A stretch of DNA of 51,158 nucleotides from Myxococcales bacterium (GTDB lineage: Bacteria; Myxococcota_A; Polyangia; Polyangiales; Polyangiaceae): the NCBI GenBank assembly GCA_013297655.1, contig JAAFHV010000030.1, positions 1 to 51,158 of the forward strand, in the 5' to 3' direction. Shown piece after piece: positions 3,682-12,415 of this stretch. Under the pieces are notes generated by a model, which searched no databases, was not told the origin of the DNA, and saw only the letters and a program-made list of their open reading frames with translations. The translations under genes and the position numbers were made by a program. Every line of letters starts with the position of its first letter. Within the stretch, counting starts at the first letter, position 1.

Positions 3682-6600
3682 ATGACCTCTCTCGTGTGGC
3701 CTCTTGGCACCCTCCATCCCCTTCAGCGGCGCTATCTCGCGGAGGACCTCGTGCGCCTCCGGCGATCGGACGAGCAACGGCGCTACGCGTCGCCTCAGCG
3801 CGCGGCGAAGGTCGACCCGAACCCGCACCAAATCGAGGCGGTCATCTTCGCGCTCGCGCGCCTACGGGAGGGCGGGTGCATCTTGGCCGACGAGGTAGGC
3901 CTCGGAAAGACGATCGAGACCGGCCTCGTGATCGCGCAGATGCTCGCCGAGGGGGCCACGCGCGTTTTGCTCGTGGGGCCGAAGGCGCTCCTCGGGCAAT
4001 GGCGACAAGAGCTCTTTACCCTCTTCGACATCGAGTCCAAAGAAGGGCACACCGGCGCCGGGGGCTTCGAGGGGGCAGGCGTGTTCCTCGTGGGGCGCGA
4101 GCAGGCGGGGAGCGAGAAGGGGCGCGACGCGCTGCTCGCCTCGGGTCGCTTCGACCTCTGCGTCATCGACGAGGCGCACGAGGTGTTCGCCGGCATCTAC
4201 AAGCGCTACGACAAGTTCGGCGAATACCGCGAAGACAGCAAAGAAGCGCGCACCGCCGGCCGCGTCCGCGAGGTGCTCGGCACCTTCCAAACGCCCGTGC
4301 TCCTCCTCACCGCGACCCCCATTCAAAACAACTTGGCCGAGCTCTGGGGCCTCGTGCAATACGTCGACCCGCTCGGCACGTTGCTCGGCGATTTGCCCAC
4401 GTTTCGCGAGGTGTTCTGCGGGGTGGACGACCGCATGCTCGCCCGCGGGCAAGACGACGAGCTGCGCGCGCGACTGAAGACCGTGGTGCAGCGCACGCTG
4501 CGCCGGCAAGCGCAGGAGTTCCTCGAGAAGCCCTTCGTCGATAGGCAAGCGCGGCTCTTCGAATACGAGATGAGCATGGAAGAGCGCTCCCTCTACGACG
4601 ACGTCACGAAGTACCTGCTCGAGCCGAACATCGTCGCGTTTCGGGGCAGCCATCGCCAGCTCCTGCTCATCGGGTTTCACCGTCGCATGGCGTCGTCCAC
4701 TCGCGCCCTCGCGGCGAGCCTCGCCCGCGTCGCGAGCCGTCTCCGCGCGATGCATCGTGGGGAGTCGACCGAGGGCAAGGCCGACACCGATTTGCTCCTC
4801 GCCGACCTCGAGCAGACCGACCTCGAGCGCACGCCACGAGACGAAGCCGAGGAAGAAGAAGAGGACACGCGCGGTCAAGCGGCGGATCCGGAGGCGGTGC
4901 GCCTGGAGCTCGCGCGGGTGGAGAGCTACGTGCGTCGCGCCGAGGCCCTCGTGAACGACGATGGCAAGTTTCGGGCGCTGCTCACCGCGCTCTCGTTCGT
5001 GCGCGAGCAGGGCCGCCACGGCAAGGGCGCAGGGAAGCTCGTCATCTTCACCGAGTCGCTCGTCACGCAGGACCACATCCGCGAGCGCCTCCTCGAGAGC
5101 GGGCTCGTACGCGACCAGGAAATTACCCTGTTTCGTGGAACGAACGACTCCAAGCGGGCGCAGGAAGCGCTCCAGAATTGGCGCGACGAGGTCCCGACCG
5201 ACGGGCCGGAGCCGAGCCGCGAAATGGCGATGCGCCTCGCCCTCGTGCACGAGCTCGCGACCCGTTCGCGGGTGCTCGTCTCCACCGAAGCAGGCGCCAA
5301 GGGACTGAACCTGCAGTTCTGCGATGCGCTCGTGAACTACGATCTTCCATGGAACCCGCAGCGCATCGAGCAGCGTATCGGGCGCTGCCACCGGTATGGC
5401 CAAAAGAACGCCGTCACCGTGATAAACTTCCTCGCGAAGGACAACGAAGCGCAGCGCCTCACCTTCGATATTTTGAGCCAAAAGCTCGAGCTCTTCGGCA
5501 CCGTTCTGGACGCGTCCGACAAGGTGCTCCACCACGGCGACGCAGCCGCCGGCGGTGTGCTCGCTTCTGCCCTCGGCGCCGAGTTCGAGGCCGAGCTACG
5601 CCGCATCTACGAGCGCTCTCGCACGGTCGACGAGGTCACCGCCGAGCTGCGGAGCCTACGCGAGCGGGTCGCAGAAGATCGCCGCCGCTTCGAGGACACC
5701 CACGCCCGCACCGCGAAGCTCATCGAAGAGCACCTCGACGACGACGTGCGCCGCGCCCTCCGCTCGCGCCGCGAAGAGCTTCCCGCCGCCCTCGCCGCGC
5801 TCGATCGCGACATATGGACCACCGTGCGCGCCTACCTGCAAGCGCACGAAGTTCCCTATGCGATCGAGGGCGCCATTGGCGGTGACGTGCTCCGTGTGAG
5901 TGCCCACGAGCGACTCCCGGCGACCCTCGCGGGAGGCACCACCGCCGCGATCGGCGCGGTCGCCGGTCACGCCTCGCTGCACCCGAGGCACCCGCTCGTG
6001 GTCGCCGCGATCGCCGATGCTCGTGCGGCGACGACCACCCACGGTTCGCACTCACCCTTCGGCAGAGGAGCCGAGGCCGGAGCGCCTACGGTCTCCCGCG
6101 TCTCCCGCGGAGCTATCGCCGTTCGTGTCCCGAGCGACGCGACTCCGGACCTCGCCGCGCTGCGAGGAAAACATGGCCTCTTGCGCGTCGCGAAGGTGTC
6201 GTTCGATGGGTTCGAGCGAGTCGAGCGACTCTTGCCTATCGTCGTGCTCGCCGACACCCTGGAGCCGCTCCCGCCCGCGACCGCCGAGGCGCTCCTTCGT
6301 GCGCAGATGGTGAACAGCGCCCCCGTCGACCTCCCGCGAGGCGCCGACGCGGTGCTCCCCGAAGACATGGCCGACGCGATGGAGACCGTCCGCCGCGCCG
6401 CGCAAACCGAGGTCGACGCGGCGGAGCAGCTTCGCTTCGAGCGCGCCTCGTTCCAAGCGCAGAGGTACATCGAAGACAGGCTCCTCGTGCAAAAACGTAG
6501 GCACGCCGAGCTCGTGCAAAAGCTCGACGAAGCCCAAGCCCGCCGCGACGCCTCGATTGGCTACGACGCGCGCACGGAAGCCGAGCGCCGGGTGATGGAG

Positions 6601-6756
6601 ATCGACGTGAAGGTGACCGAGCTCGAGGCGGTCGTAGAGAAGCTCGAGCGCCGGGAGAACCCTACGTTTCAGCGCTTCCACGACCATATTCATCAACGCC
6701 GCTACGCCGTGCCCGTGGTGGAGACCCTGTTCGAGACGGAGCTCGTCATCGAATGA
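3682..6756 (+). CDS. SNF2/RapA-like DEAH-box helicase with long C-terminal coiled coil
   Basis: A 1024-residue superfamily 2 ATPase. From ATG 3682: Q-like motif around N47-P-H-Q50, Walker A D70-E-V-G-L-G-K-T77 (Lys76), Walker B D163-E-A-H166, motif III T210-A-T-P, motif V (S-T-E-A-G-A-K-G-L-N-L-Q), motif VI Q564-R-I-G-R-C-H-R-Y-G-Q. This is the SNF2/RapA layout, with translocase rather than strand-separating activity expected. A charged insert (Glu/Asp run) sits between the two RecA-like lobes. The last third is alpha-helical with a coiled coil before the end. It is the first gene of a three-gene operon; its TGA overlaps the nuclease ATG by 4 bp. Likely role: DNA translocase feeding an Mre11/Rad50-type complex, in repair or in defence against foreign DNA (inference). 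Confidence 0.9.
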   Translation: MTSLVWPLGTLHPLQRRYLAEDLVRLRRSDEQRRYASPQRAAKVDPNPHQIEAVIFALARLREGGCILADEVGLGKTIETGLVIAQMLAEGATRVLLVGPKALLGQWRQELFTLFDIESKEGHTGAGGFEGAGVFLVGREQAGSEKGRDALLASGRFDLCVIDEAHEVFAGIYKRYDKFGEYREDSKEARTAGRVREVLGTFQTPVLLLTATPIQNNLAELWGLVQYVDPLGTLLGDLPTFREVFCGVDDRMLARGQDDELRARLKTVVQRTLRRQAQEFLEKPFVDRQARLFEYEMSMEERSLYDDVTKYLLEPNIVAFRGSHRQLLLIGFHRRMASSTRALAASLARVASRLRAMHRGESTEGKADTDLLLADLEQTDLERTPRDEAEEEEEDTRGQAADPEAVRLELARVESYVRRAEALVNDDGKFRALLTALSFVREQGRHGKGAGKLVIFTESLVTQDHIRERLLESGLVRDQEITLFRGTNDSKRAQEALQNWRDEVPTDGPEPSREMAMRLALVHELATRSRVLVSTEAGAKGLNLQFCDALVNYDLPWNPQRIEQRIGRCHRYGQKNAVTVINFLAKDNEAQRLTFDILSQKLELFGTVLDASDKVLHHGDAAAGGVLASALGAEFEAELRRIYERSRTVDEVTAELRSLRERVAEDRRRFEDTHARTAKLIEEHLDDDVRRALRSRREELPAALAALDRDIWTTVRAYLQAHEVPYAIEGAIGGDVLRVSAHERLPATLAGGTTAAIGAVAGHASLHPRHPLVVAAIADARAATTTHGSHSPFGRGAEAGAPTVSRVSRGAIAVRVPSDATPDLAALRGKHGLLRVAKVSFDGFERVERLLPIVVLADTLEPLPPATAEALLRAQMVNSAPVDLPRGADAVLPEDMADAMETVRRAAQTEVDAAEQLRFERASFQAQRYIEDRLLVQKRRHAELVQKLDEAQARRDASIGYDARTEAERRVMEIDVKVTELEAVVEKLERRENPTFQRFHDHIHQRRYAVPVVETLFETELVIE

Positions 6757-7922
6757 GCCCAGCACCGGAGGACGACGTCGTGTTGAAGCTGCTCCACACC
6801 GCGGATTGGCACCTTGGCCGCCGCTTTCCTGGCTTCGTGCGCGAGGACGCCGAGCGAAAGCTCACCCGCGCGCGGGTCGACGTGCTCGAGCGCATCTTCG
6901 GCCTCGCCGAGCGCTACGAGGTAGACGCGGTGCTCTGCGCGGGCGATCTCTTCGACGTGCCCTCGCCGCTCCCGGAGTGGTGGGAGCCCCTGGTGGAGCA
7001 GCTCGTCAAGCGCAACTGGGCATTACGACCGGTGTTCCTGCTCCCCGGCAATCACGATCCGCTCCTCCCCGATTCGATTTGGGCGCGCGGGAGTAAGCTC
7101 CGAAACGCGCTTCCCCCTTGGGTCCACGTCGTCGACGCTTCGCCGCTGGAGGTTCCCCTCGTCGGCAATGCGGTGCTCTACGCCGTGCCGTGCACCAGCA
7201 AAGCGGGCCAGCGCGACCCTACCGAGCTCATCCCCAAGCGCGCCGCGGGCGACGATCGCATTCGCATCGGCATGGTGCACGGCAGCACGTTCGACATGAA
7301 AGATTGCCAAACCGACTTCCCGATATCGCGCGACGCAGCGATCGATCGTGGCCTCGACTACCTCGCGATAGGAGACACCCACGGCTTTCGCTTCGTGCCC
7401 GCCGAAAGGCGCGAGCCGCCGACGGTGTATCCCGGCGCGCCGGAGCCCACCGCGTTCGACGAGAAGGACGCCGGCAAGGTGGCGCTCGTCTTCGTCAATC
7501 GCCGCCGCAAGGTCACGGTGCAACCCGAGGCGGTCGCGACCTGGACGTGGGAAGAGCGCCATATCGCCACCATGGCGGAGCTCCGTGACCTCCGCGCGCG
7601 CACGGACCTCGACCGTCGTGTGCTGCGTTTACGCGTGGAAATGTGCGTGCCCGCCCCCGAATACGAAGAAGCCGAGCGCCTCCTCGAGGACCTGGAAGGC
7701 ACCGTCGCCAAACACGGCCGCGTCGGTGTGCTCCAGCTCGAACGCGCTGGCCTCGTGCTCGAGACGAGCAGTATCGATGTGTACTGCAAAGATTTTCCGG
7801 ACGTGCTGCGGAGCGCGGTCGAACGCCTCCGCGAGCAGGCCAACACCGAAGATCCGGCGCGCGCAAAGGTGGCTGAGCGGGCCCTCTTCCACCTCTATCG
7901 TCTCGGTCGAAAGGCCTCCTGA
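6753..7922 (+). CDS. Mre11/SbcD/YhaO-like metallophosphoesterase nuclease
   Basis: A 389-residue calcineurin-fold phosphoesterase with the full set of metal ligands: D18-x-H20, G64-D65-L-F-D68, G99-N100-H101-D102, H176 (M-V-H-G) and G207-D208-T-H210. These are the two-metal nuclease motifs of Mre11/SbcD. The remaining 180 residues would form the capping and ATPase-binding regions. Length matches SbcD or YhaO. The start ATG overlaps the helicase stop (ATGA, 6753-6756), and the next gene, an SMC-type ATPase, begins one base after its TGA, so a physical complex is very likely. Expected activity is ATP-regulated endo/exonuclease on DNA ends or hairpins; the actual substrate is unknown. Confidence 0.9.
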   Translation: MSPAPEDDVVLKLLHTADWHLGRRFPGFVREDAERKLTRARVDVLERIFGLAERYEVDAVLCAGDLFDVPSPLPEWWEPLVEQLVKRNWALRPVFLLPGNHDPLLPDSIWARGSKLRNALPPWVHVVDASPLEVPLVGNAVLYAVPCTSKAGQRDPTELIPKRAAGDDRIRIGMVHGSTFDMKDCQTDFPISRDAAIDRGLDYLAIGDTHGFRFVPAERREPPTVYPGAPEPTAFDEKDAGKVALVFVNRRRKVTVQPEAVATWTWEERHIATMAELRDLRARTDLDRRVLRLRVEMCVPAPEYEEAERLLEDLEGTVAKHGRVGVLQLERAGLVLETSSIDVYCKDFPDVLRSAVERLREQANTEDPARAKVAERALFHLYRLGRKAS

Positions 7923-7923
7923 G

Positions 7924-10900
7924 ATGCGGTTCGTCAAGCTCGTCGTGAAGAGCTTCCAGGCCATCGAGAGCGCGGAGATCGAGCTCGGCCGCGGGCTCAA
8001 CGTTCTTTATGGGCCCAACGATCTCGGAAAATCCACGGTCGCGAGCGCCATCCGCGCCGCCCTCTTGGTGATGCCGGGCACGGCCGAAGCGAGCCGTTAT
8101 CGACCCTGGTTCGCCGACGGAGGCGCGCCCGAGGTGACGCTCACCCTCGTCGACGACGACGATCGCTACTGGCGTGTGAAGAAGTCGTTCGGCGCTTCGG
8201 GGGCGCAAGCAAAGTCCGATCTTGCCACATCGAAAGACGGAGTCGCGTTCGTTCACGACAGCGACGGGCGCGCGGTAGACGAGCAGCTCAGGAAGCTCCT
8301 CGGATGGGGAATCCCTTCACCAGGCGGAAAGGGCGCTCCGCGTGGGCTGCCCACGAGCTTTCTCGCGAACGTGCTCCTCGGCGAACAATCGAACGTGGAG
8401 TCCATTCTCGCGCAGAGCACGGAGGGCGACGGCGCCAGCTCGGGGAAGGAGCGACTCCGCAAGGCCCTCGCCGGCCTCGCCGAAGATCCGTGGTTCAAGC
8501 GCGTGCTCACCGAAGCGCAGAAGAAGGTGGACGCGTATTTTACCCCCGCCGGGCAGCGCAAACGCGGCAAGGGCTCCCCGTTCATCCAGGCGTCCGACTT
8601 GGTGAAGGCGCGCGGAGAGAAGCTCGACGAGCTCCGAAGAGGGGTGGAGGAGTCGCGCGCGGTCGAAGAGAACGTCCGTACTCTACGCGAGCGCAGCCTC
8701 GCCGCCCGCGAGGCCTGCGACGAGGCCACTCGCGAGCTCGCCACGCTACGCCAAGCGTATGCGCGCGCCGCCGAGCGTACCCGCGCCGAAGAGAAGCTCG
8801 CCCGCGCCACGGCGGAGGTCGAAGCGCTCGACCAGCGGGCGAACGAGGTCGCCGAGGCCGAACGTGAAGCGAAGCGTCTCGAAGGTGTCGTTGCCAGTGC
8901 CGCCGAGCGCGTGGTGGAGGCGAGCGCCCTCGCCGTGAGCGCGGAGGAGGCGGTTCGCGCGGCGGAAGATGCGCTCCGCGCAGCCGCGGGGGAGGACGGC
9001 GCGAGGCAGCGCGAGGTGAACCGCGCCAATCTACAGCGAGAGCGCGCCGAGCTCGCGACCAAGAAGGTCGAGGCGGAGAAGCGTCGCGACGCTGCGGCGG
9101 CCGCGCAGAAGCTCGCGCAGTCGGCGAAGGACGCAGGAGAGGAAAAAACGCGGGCGCTCGAGGATCTTGCCAACGCGCAATCGGGCGAAGAGGGGGCGCG
9201 CGCCGTGCTCACGGAGGCGGAAGGCGACCTCGCCCTCGCGCGCAGCATCGTGGCTTATGGTCAGTGGCACGCCGCCGAAGCTGCCGCGAATCACGCCCTC
9301 GCCGCCCGCGATCGTGCCGAGTCGGAGCGGGCACGGAGCAAAGCGAAGGAGGCCGCGGCGTCCGAGTACGAGGCGCGCGCGATCTCGCTGGAAGCAGAGG
9401 CCACCGCCGCGCGCGCGCTGCTGCCCGATCCAGCGCTCACGAAACGAATCGAAGATCTCTTCCAGCGCATCGCCATGGCAGAAGCGTCCCTCGGGGGAGG
9501 GTTCTCCATCGTGCTGAAGGGCACTGGCAAGGCTGCGCTCCACGTGACCACCGACGGGGAACAGGTCGTCGGCGGCACGATGCTGGACGGCAAGCTGGTG
9601 CTCGAGGCCGACAAAATGGCCAGTGTCGGCATTGCCGATTTGCTCGACGTCGAGATCGTCGCCGGTGCGGCCGAAAAGCGACACGAGCTCGAGAGGCTGC
9701 GCGAGCGTTGGGCGAACGAGGCCCTCCCGTTCTTGAAGCGGGCGGGAGTCGAGGCTCCTCTTGCCCTCCGCGAAAAGAAGACCGCGCTCGATGCCCTCGA
9801 TGCGAAGCTGGTGCAGCTCCGAAGCGACGCGCGCCAACATCGCACCGAGGCCGCCGCCGCCGAAGCCGCCGCGACCCTGGAAGACCAACGTCGGGCGATG
9901 CTCGACGCGAGCGCGAGAGAGGCCTCGGTGCTCGAGGCGAAGCTCGGGGCCCAAGATCGTGCGCTCCTCGCGCAGTACGTGGAGCGCCTCGGGCCGCAAT
10001 GGAAAGAGCAAGCCGACGCGCTCGTAAGTGCCAAAGAGGAGTCGCTCGCGGACGCGCGCGGCAAGCTGGAAAATGCACGGAGTGCGCGTGAAATGGCGCA
10101 GTATCGCGCCGCCGACGCGGAAAAGCTCGACACGAGCGCGCGCGCCGCGGCCGAGGGTGCGCTCGCCGCGCTCGGGCAACGAAAGGGCAAGTCGCCCGCG
10201 GGTGCGCTCGTAAAGCTCCTCGACGAGGCTCGCACCGAGCTCGACACCGTCGCTGCGCGCGTGCTCGTCGTCGATACCGAGCTTGGCGCGCTCGAGCGGG
10301 AGGCCTCCGAGAAGGTGAACGCAGCGAAGGCGAACGTGGAGCGCGCAGAGGCTTCGCGCGATGCGGCGATGGCCGGTCGTGCGGGCCTGGTGCAGATCCA
10401 GGAGGCCGCGCGAGCCGATCTCCAGCGCGCGCTCGGGAGAGCGGAGGCGCTTCGCAAAGCGCTCGAGGGCGCCGATCGTGCCGGCTCCGAGCAGCGCCTC
10501 GCCGAAGCCAAAGAGGCATTCGCGGTGTATGCCTCCGATTCGCTCGTCTCTCGTCCCGGCGCTCCAGGGATCACTGCCGACGACGTCACGGCGGCGGAGG
10601 CGCGCGAGGCCGAGGCAAAGTCCAAGCTCGACGAGTGCAAGGCAGAGGCGAGTCACGCCGAAGGGGCGCTCACCAAAGTAGGCGGCGCGGGTGTCCGCGA
10701 CGAGCTCCTTCGGTCGCGCGAGGCCTACGATCTCGCCAAGGAGCGCCAACACGATCTCGAGGTCGACGCGGACGCCTGGCGCCTGCTCCGCGAGACCTTG
10801 GAAGAGGTAGAGAAAGAGGGCAGTACGCACCTCGGGAAGTCGCTCGCGGCGCCCGTGTCGAGCCGCCTCGCCGACTTGAGCCGCGGTCGTTACTCGGGGC

Positions 10901-11292
10901 TCCGCCTCGACCAGCACCTGCGCGCCGAGGCCATGGACGTGGCCGCCGCGAAGGCGAGTGACGACGTGCTCGAGGCGCTCTCGGTCGGCACGCGCGATCA
11001 AGTCGCGACGTTGTTACGCCTCACGGTGGCAGAGCAGCTCAAGAGCGCCATCGTGCTCGACGACCATTTGGTCCACACCGACCCCGAACGCCTCGAGTGG
11101 TTCCGCGACACCTTGCGAAGCGTGGCCCTCGGCACCCAAGTCATCGTCATTACGTGCAGACCACACGATTATCTCGGCGCCTTCGATCTGTCCCAGGGCG
11201 CGACGCGCGACCTCGCGGGTGGCATGATGCGTGTCATCGACGCGACGAAGGTGATTCGGCGCTTCGGCCCCGCGCCGACCTCGCGCCGCTGA
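7924..11292 (+). CDS. Rad50/SbcC/YhaN-like SMC ATPase without zinc hook
   Basis: A 1122-residue SMC-family ATPase. The N-terminal half-ATPase has Walker A G30-P-N-D-L-G-K-S-T38. The C-terminal half has an ABC signature L1019-S-V-G-T-R-D-Q and Walker B ending in L1045-D-D. Between them are two very long Ala/Glu/Arg-rich coiled coils. The turn of the coil, about residues 500-585, is a globular Gly-rich beta segment resembling an SMC hinge; no C-x-x-C zinc hook occurs anywhere. ATG 7924 is chosen because the MRFVKLVVKSF start is typical; the same frame is open upstream inside the nuclease gene. It follows that gene by one base. It should form a nuclease/ATPase complex with the protein before it. 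Confidence 0.9.
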   Translation: MRFVKLVVKSFQAIESAEIELGRGLNVLYGPNDLGKSTVASAIRAALLVMPGTAEASRYRPWFADGGAPEVTLTLVDDDDRYWRVKKSFGASGAQAKSDLATSKDGVAFVHDSDGRAVDEQLRKLLGWGIPSPGGKGAPRGLPTSFLANVLLGEQSNVESILAQSTEGDGASSGKERLRKALAGLAEDPWFKRVLTEAQKKVDAYFTPAGQRKRGKGSPFIQASDLVKARGEKLDELRRGVEESRAVEENVRTLRERSLAAREACDEATRELATLRQAYARAAERTRAEEKLARATAEVEALDQRANEVAEAEREAKRLEGVVASAAERVVEASALAVSAEEAVRAAEDALRAAAGEDGARQREVNRANLQRERAELATKKVEAEKRRDAAAAAQKLAQSAKDAGEEKTRALEDLANAQSGEEGARAVLTEAEGDLALARSIVAYGQWHAAEAAANHALAARDRAESERARSKAKEAAASEYEARAISLEAEATAARALLPDPALTKRIEDLFQRIAMAEASLGGGFSIVLKGTGKAALHVTTDGEQVVGGTMLDGKLVLEADKMASVGIADLLDVEIVAGAAEKRHELERLRERWANEALPFLKRAGVEAPLALREKKTALDALDAKLVQLRSDARQHRTEAAAAEAAATLEDQRRAMLDASAREASVLEAKLGAQDRALLAQYVERLGPQWKEQADALVSAKEESLADARGKLENARSAREMAQYRAADAEKLDTSARAAAEGALAALGQRKGKSPAGALVKLLDEARTELDTVAARVLVVDTELGALEREASEKVNAAKANVERAEASRDAAMAGRAGLVQIQEAARADLQRALGRAEALRKALEGADRAGSEQRLAEAKEAFAVYASDSLVSRPGAPGITADDVTAAEAREAEAKSKLDECKAEASHAEGALTKVGGAGVRDELLRSREAYDLAKERQHDLEVDADAWRLLRETLEEVEKEGSTHLGKSLAAPVSSRLADLSRGRYSGLRLDQHLRAEAMDVAAAKASDDVLEALSVGTRDQVATLLRLTVAEQLKSAIVLDDHLVHTDPERLEWFRDTLRSVALGTQVIVITCRPHDYLGAFDLSQGATRDLAGGMMRVIDATKVIRRFGPAPTSRR

Positions 11293-11463
11293 CGCTCAAG
11301 AAAAGACGTCCTCGACGGTAGCGGCGGCGAAGGAGCGCTGAAGCCATTCTTTCAAGGTGGGGAGATCGGCGCGCGAGATGCGAGCGGCCACCTCGGGAGG
11401 AGTGGCCAACCCACGGGCGGCGAGTGAGGCGAGCAGCGCGCCGGCCATCGCCTGACGTCCCTG

Positions 11464-11607
11464 CTCGAGGCCCTTTTCGAGTCCCTGCTCGAGGCCCTTT
11501 TCGAGTCCTTGCTCGAGGCCCTTTTCGAGTCCTTGCTCGAGGCCCTTTTCGAGTCCTTGCTCGAGGCCCTTTTCGAGTCCTTGCTCGAGGCCCTGCTCGA
11601 GGCCTTC
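11464..11607 (-). repeat. 24-bp tandem repeat encoding (GLEQGLEK)n
   Basis: Five 24-bp units begin at 11464, 11488, 11512, 11536 and 11560, followed by a 12-bp half unit at 11584 and a degenerate unit from 11596. The first unit differs by one base; the next four look identical. It encodes an 8-residue amphipathic repeat in the Rpn-family gene. Such arrays expand and contract in whole in-frame units by slippage. Confidence 0.9.
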
Positions 11608-12235
11608 TTGCCAATACTTCTTGGCGAAATCGCCTTGGGGTTTGAATCGTTGCATCATGAGGTTCTCCAAAGCAGCACGCGCTGCGCCTGCGAGGGTGAC
11701 CGTAAGGAGATCGAAGTATAGCTCGCCGCGCGCGGTGAGGCCTTCGAGTGCGTTCAGTGCGCGAACGGCGGCCTCGGGGTCGGTCGGCCGCGCGAGTGAG
11801 GTGACGAGGGCGAGGGCGGGATGCTCCGGCCCGACCTGCAACTGTCCTATTTGCGCGAGCAGGCGGGGGCCCACGACGAGCGGAACGAACCGCGAGCCGC
11901 TCGGACGGATGCTCTCCGCGTCCTTGGCCCAAGCTTCGACCCGCTCGTCGAGGGTGAGCACGAGCACGGTCGCCGGAGCTTGGCCGCGGCGCGCGGCTTC
12001 GGATTCGTAGACGGGCCACGTCCAGCGCTTCGAATCGTCGATCTTGAGCTGAATCTCCAGGACCACGATCCACGCCGAACCGTCCGCATGGCGAAGCCGG
12101 ATGCACGCATCGGCCGCGAGCTCGGGCACCGATACGGAAGTAGGGAGCGCCCCCTCCACCGCGAGCCCCTCAACCGGAAATCCCGCGACGGGCAGCAAGT
12201 CGAGGAGAAAGCCCTCGTCGAGCTCGAAGAGGTAC

Positions 12236-12415
12236 TTAACAGCCCGTTGATTTACTCCCGTCGGCCAATCGCCGCCGCATCCCGACCGCCTTCGTTGCGA
12301 TCCTGCGGTGCGTGCTCACCTAGAAAACTAGGCTCCGCGCGCTCCTCGGATCGCGCCTCGGCGGATCGGGCGCGGACGACGACCGGCCTCGGTCCGTAAA
12401 TCAACGGGCTGTTAA
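12236..12415. mobile_element. 172-bp MITE-like palindromic element with TTAA target duplication
   Basis: Element 12240-12411. The left end CAGCCCGTTGATTTAC (12240-12255) and the right end (12396-12411) are perfect 16-bp inverted repeats starting CAG. Directly outside both ends is TTAA (12236-12239 and 12412-12415), consistent with a 4-bp target duplication. The interior is also an imperfect palindrome throughout, centred on CCTAG-AAAA-CTAGG (12319-12332), so the whole element can fold into one long hairpin. It encodes no transposase and would need one in trans. It disrupts the Rpn-family gene on the minus strand. Family unassigned. Confidence 0.85.

Follow-up and report, generated by a model that had tools for sequence, protein, structure and literature searches.

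The operon and its three products

The window, the whole stretch of DNA analysed here, is a complete contig of 51,158 bases that forms part of a 9.9-Mb genome. Near its left end lie three codirectional genes, which we call HEL, MRE and SMC.

3682..6756, + strand: HEL, RapA/DrmD-type SNF2 dsDNA translocase (1024 aa; ATG at 3682, stop at 6756)
3898-3912, + strand: GLGKT motif of HEL
4168-4179, + strand: DEAH motif of HEL
5371-5403, + strand: QRIGRCHRYGQ motif of HEL
6753..6756, + strand: stop/start overlap of HEL and MRE (ATGA, 4 bp)
6753..7922, + strand: MRE, SbcD/YhaO-type metallophosphoesterase nuclease (389 aa; ATG at 6753; predicted ligands D18, H20, D65, N100, H101, H176, D208 and H210)
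7924..11292, + strand: SMC, Rad50/YhaN-type coiled-coil ABC ATPase (1122 aa; ATG at 7924)
8011-8034, + strand: Walker A of SMC (GPNDLGKS)
9502..9660, + strand: predicted beta domain at the apex of SMC (AlphaFold, local pLDDT about 70-78), about 53 residues (527-579) that separate the two coiled-coil arms where a zinc hook would otherwise sit
10978-11001, + strand: signature motif of SMC (LSVGTRDQ)
11047-11070, + strand: Walker B/D-loop of SMC (LDDHL)

The open reading frames match the three-gene operon described in an earlier note on this DNA, with its 4-bp overlap between HEL and MRE and 1-bp spacer between MRE and SMC. Third-position GC of the three genes is 0.81-0.84, of coding type and like that of the neighbouring genes, and by inspection the ATGA overlap recurs at about 20 other loci carrying the cassette.

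The SNF2/RapA-like translocase with intact motifs that the same note proposed is borne out by the three helicase motifs, which are intact and collinear in all relatives, and by Pfam matches to SNF2-rel_dom (3e-24) and Helicase_C (2e-14). The best family model is DrmD_b of DISARM (1e-123; 1e-121 in PADLOC), which covers residues 40-701, the SNF2 core. The predicted structure (pLDDT 76) matches Escherichia coli RapA (8spg) over 711 aligned residues spanning HEL residues 12-1024 (VIA Z 20, rmsd 10.1); the match begins at RapA residue 124, so the N-terminal part of RapA is absent from HEL. Beyond the core, residues ~726-1010 form a predicted beta domain and a long helical hairpin. With RecA core motifs and a RapA-like C-terminal part, HEL belongs with the RapA/DrmD-type SNF2 translocases.

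MRE matches Pfam Metallophos (2e-14) and the SbcD model (1e-17), the latter at 64.5 bits, below the curated cut-off of 77.65. Seven of the eight Mre11 ligand positions are canonical, but the GHxH motif reads GDTH, its first histidine replaced by aspartate (D208), as in 34 of 35 family members; because of this substitution the claim that all nuclease ligands are present was slightly overstated. Motif I is DxH in 34 of the 35 cassette-clade nucleases and DxQ in 68 of 69 helicase-less YhaO-like relatives (L058-L129). With DxH and GDTH together, the cassette nuclease thus resembles canonical Mre11 at motif I and carries the family's aspartate at the other site. The exchange of DxH for DxQ is itself an unusual metal-site change across a widespread family.

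In SMC, an ABC head is interrupted by a long coiled coil (predicted structure with pLDDT 77 and pTM 0.42). The head fold agrees with the description of a Rad50-type ATPase (VIA Z 27.0 to 3qf7 over 336 residues, rmsd 4.4; 23.6 to E. coli SbcC, 6s6v), but the zinc hook is missing, and no CxxC hook occurs in any of 12 full-length relatives, the window copy included. The rokubacterial homologue (L056, 3906-8048) has a hydrophobic, possibly membrane-spanning apex and no beta domain.

Directly beyond SMC lies a gene that the earlier note assigned to the Rpn family and regarded, with a transposon-like insertion, as part of an accessory island.

11296-12198, - strand: Rpn-like protein gene (Pfam: repeat match only)
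11433-11624, - strand: 12-nt tandem repeat tract of EQGLEKGL type within this gene
12236-12415: MITE-like element of 180 bp, bounded by perfect 20-bp terminal inverted repeats (TTAACAGCCCGTTGATTTAC) and situated shortly upstream of the Rpn-like gene

The insertion is real: its terminal repeat has nine matches in the genome at no more than 2 mismatches, against 0 for the reversed control. The Rpn label, on the other hand, finds no support in Pfam, and the repeat tract makes the protein match FliH/Yae1 models. The gene was rejected as a fourth component of the cassette, as it lies near none of the other 34 loci.

Distribution and phylogeny

The order HEL-MRE-SMC is recurrent beyond chance. Of 317 genomes in the class of the window, 28 (about 9%) carry the MRE clade, at 30 loci in all, and HEL stands directly upstream at 27 of these loci, the exceptions being G357, G417 and G187. 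The cassette is therefore no core vertical locus shared by all relatives. A species-wide scan set apart eight loci whose nucleases are 39-67% identical to MRE from YhaO/YhaN-like pairs at about 26-36%; HEL is upstream in seven of the eight and missing only from L055, which shares its contig with G357. The two scans overlap, L054 and L052 being G384 and G493 of the class-wide scan. Outside the class the cassette occurs in Vicinamibacteria (L051, Acidobacteriota), Gammaproteobacteria (L053), Rokubacteria (L056, Rokubacteriota) and, in a divergent form, Obscuribacterales (L057). In L315 (L054, 6577-9546) the HEL gene is broken across frames, by assembly error or decay, next to an intact-looking MRE.

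All cassette helicases fall into one clade of the HEL tree (SH-aLRT 99), the sole member from outside a cassette being G121, at a contig end; the rows labelled 'other' within this clade are, G121 apart, duplicate retrievals of genes already in the tree. The MRE and SMC-head trees require three changes and are consistent with one MRE-SMC clade that gained HEL once and later lost it twice. In G187 and G417, which belong to one genus, HEL has been lost, MRE and SMC are kept and SMC is shortened; these two loci and G211 also have a Sir2 gene and a second uncharacterised gene nearby in common. Parts of the HEL clade mirror host families whereas other groups mix phyla, so both vertical inheritance and transfer have taken place. 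One sister pair of the MRE tree joins a Myxococcota locus (L030) to the Acidobacteriota locus L051 with SH-aLRT 100.

No cassette was found on plasmids or viral contigs. A phage-borne origin was considered and rejected: nuclease matches on viral contigs are 22-41% identical, mostly over short stretches, and viral SNF2 relatives stand without MRE or SMC. A candidate empty site in G006 was not clean, two left-flank genes being conserved, the next gene different and no right-flank gene near. No further gene is common to more than 3 of the 35 cassette loci, which share no fourth component.

Relation to known systems and defence neighbours

The closest relatives of MRE and SMC are YhaO/YhaN-type pairs, which share the nuclease-ATPase pairing, usually with a 4-bp overlap, the LSxGTxxQ and LDDxL style of the ATPase and the GDxH nuclease motif. 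The ATPases of these pairs have about 880 residues and no accompanying helicase, whereas the cassette ATPases mostly have 1078-1380 and come with an SNF2 motor. In trees and gene maps the cassette shows an adjacent nuclease and long coiled-coil ATPase within the same sequence clade as these pairs, and we take the wider helicase-less family to be the one named YhaO/YhaN. Judged from sequence, the cassette is a member of this broad family with an added motor. SbcCD and Mre11-Rad50 combine an Mre11 nuclease with a Rad50 ABC head, and the cassette pairs a head of Rad50 type with a probable Mre11-type nuclease; it differs in lacking the zinc hook, in its aspartate for one metal histidine, in its LDD Walker B, in its extra SNF2 gene and in being rare and accessory. 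E. coli RapA, matched along the whole length of HEL, differs in that HEL is operonic with a nuclease and an SMC protein.

Membership of three known defence systems was examined and rejected. HEL resembles DrmD of DISARM through its SNF2 core but scores 414 bits against an equivalog cut-off of 950, which no protein in 235 genomes of the phylum exceeds, and the window has no DrmA, DrmB, DrmC or methyltransferase alongside and no DISARM core gene among its other proteins. Lamassu shares the logic of an SMC-like ATPase with a nuclease, and its LmuB head matches the SMC model (Z 19), but in sequence SMC matches LmuB weakly (best 2e-7); the window has no match to LmuA or LmuC, and the cassette has a dedicated Mre11-type nuclease, an SNF2 motor, a much longer coiled coil and no zinc hook. 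For Wadjet (JetABCD, with kleisin, KITE and a toprim-type nuclease) no Jet match was listed for MRE or SMC, and none was found among the other window proteins. In PADLOC 2.0, the defence catalogue covered here, MRE had no match and HEL and SMC had sub-family matches only. The literature searched contained no description of a helicase-nuclease-SMC combination.

The expectation of a defence or accessory island finds no support in the window itself, where none of the other 31 proteins matches PADLOC at 1e-10, and most sampled cassettes lie amid housekeeping genes. Across loci, however, the 87 nearest neighbours include strong, specific matches to Avs2, PglZ, BrxHI, SngC and type I and type II methyltransferases, against mainly generic kinase and regulator models (best 1e-109) among 86 control neighbours; among PADLOC matches, those of kinases and helicases are in part unspecific. 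In G085 a BREX locus with BrxC (7e-38), PglZ, BrxD-like and BrxHI-like genes stands upstream of the cassette, and the BrxHI-like gene overlaps the start of HEL by 4 bp (ATGA), so that the cassette closes the BREX operon. BrxD/SngB-like and BrxHI/SngC-like genes lie directly upstream in G501 and G248, Avs2 (2e-259) is the neighbour of SMC in G351, and in L057 the cassette abuts the type I restriction genes HsdM-HsdS-HsdR. The defence linkage proposed earlier thus holds in several genomes, together with spread across phyla.

Full-length SngC/BrxHI-type helicases (E < 1e-120) number 14 in the 28 cassette genomes, and 3 of the 14 lie within 6 kb upstream of a cassette where 0.02-0.034 would be expected; the corresponding P of about 1e-6 to 6e-6 is only indicative, because we settled on this test with the neighbours already known. 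The three cassettes linked to BREX type 2-like (BrxD, BrxHI) or Shango-like (SngB, SngC) genes occupy separate branches of the HEL tree. The cassette is nevertheless core to neither system, since most copies stand alone. An 876-aa protein of G501 was considered as a PglZ: its HGG..EE and TADHG motifs are PglZ-like but no proof, and BLASTP to the G085 PglZ is not significant. The 1195-aa protein upstream of it has no sequence match in the PDB.

A candidate defence cassette and its alternatives

The cassette, rare and mobile in soil bacteria and repeatedly found beside anti-virus systems, is probably an undescribed defence module, a role judged from genomic context. We lean, with some reserve, towards a self-contained, horizontally mobile three-gene cassette directed against invading DNA. 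Its history, as read from the trees and gene maps, would be that a dedicated motor lineage joined a dedicated YhaO/YhaN-like nuclease-clamp lineage, and that the resulting unit is now spreading and attaching itself to known defence systems. By analogy with the families involved, its most likely role is restriction of foreign DNA through motor-assisted loading of an Mre11-Rad50-like nuclease. The RapA/DrmD-like motor would load on and translocate along foreign dsDNA, where it may strip proteins or sense ends, replication intermediates or similar features, and would deliver or activate a complex that MRE forms with the long coiled-coil ATPase. This complex would clamp DNA through ATP-dependent engagement of its Rad50-type heads, and MRE, predicted from its ligands to be an Mn-type nuclease, would cut or degrade what is clamped; in some genomes the cassette would serve as an additional effector attached to a BREX or Shango operon. 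To the full version of this proposal, an undescribed system whose autonomous SNF2 motor drives the Mre11-Rad50-like clamp onto invading DNA, and which can in addition serve BREX/Shango operons as an interchangeable effector, we give about an even chance.

The main rival, which we consider unlikely although it deserves serious attention, is accessory repair of double-strand breaks or replication forks, in which an SbcCD-like YhaO/YhaN end-processing pair gained a RapA/Rad54-like motor that clears proteins from ends, the defence linkage reflecting shared insertion hot spots. Membership of MRE and SMC in a wide family of helicase-less pairs, the closeness of the SMC head to Rad50 of Mre11-Rad50 complexes, the lack of defence neighbours at most cassettes and the retention of MRE-SMC without HEL in two nested lineages all fit such a role. 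It accords poorly with a cassette present in so small a fraction of the class, with several cross-phylum transfers and with its recurrent attachment behind BREX/Shango genes, in one case through a translational overlap. The kinship of HEL also speaks against it: the closest relatives beyond its clade are SNF2 proteins that plasmids and viral contigs encode beside DNA methyltransferases or restriction helicases, and are thus putative defence-type motors and not Rad54-like.

Far less probable is a fragment derived from DISARM or BREX, in which HEL would be a leftover DrmD/BrxH that came to lie beside MRE-SMC by accident. DrmD_b being the best profile match of HEL and the closing position in the BREX operon of G085 would suit such an origin, but the score lies well below the cut-off, HEL forms a clade of its own, no DISARM core gene is present in the window, and the conserved three-gene order at 27 of 30 loci largely refutes an accidental link. 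We attach equally little weight to a function in competence, conjugation or mobile-element maintenance, processing incoming or transposing DNA to the benefit of an element: horizontal spread is what this would predict, yet the surroundings of the cassettes have no integrase, transfer or plasmid gene in common, and no cassette was found on plasmids.

On the favoured reading of a defence cassette, its occurrence downstream of BREX genes and also of Shango-like ones suggests an exchange of effector modules among defence systems. SMC/Rad50-like complexes, such as those of Wadjet and Lamassu, are increasingly recognised as foreign-DNA sensors (reviewed in PMC10586767). If the proposal is true, a version equipped with an Mre11-type nuclease and an SNF2 motor of its own would connect immunity with the end-processing machines of the chromosome, and the question of how an SMC-like clamp comes to be loaded on foreign DNA would gain an answer that can be tested.
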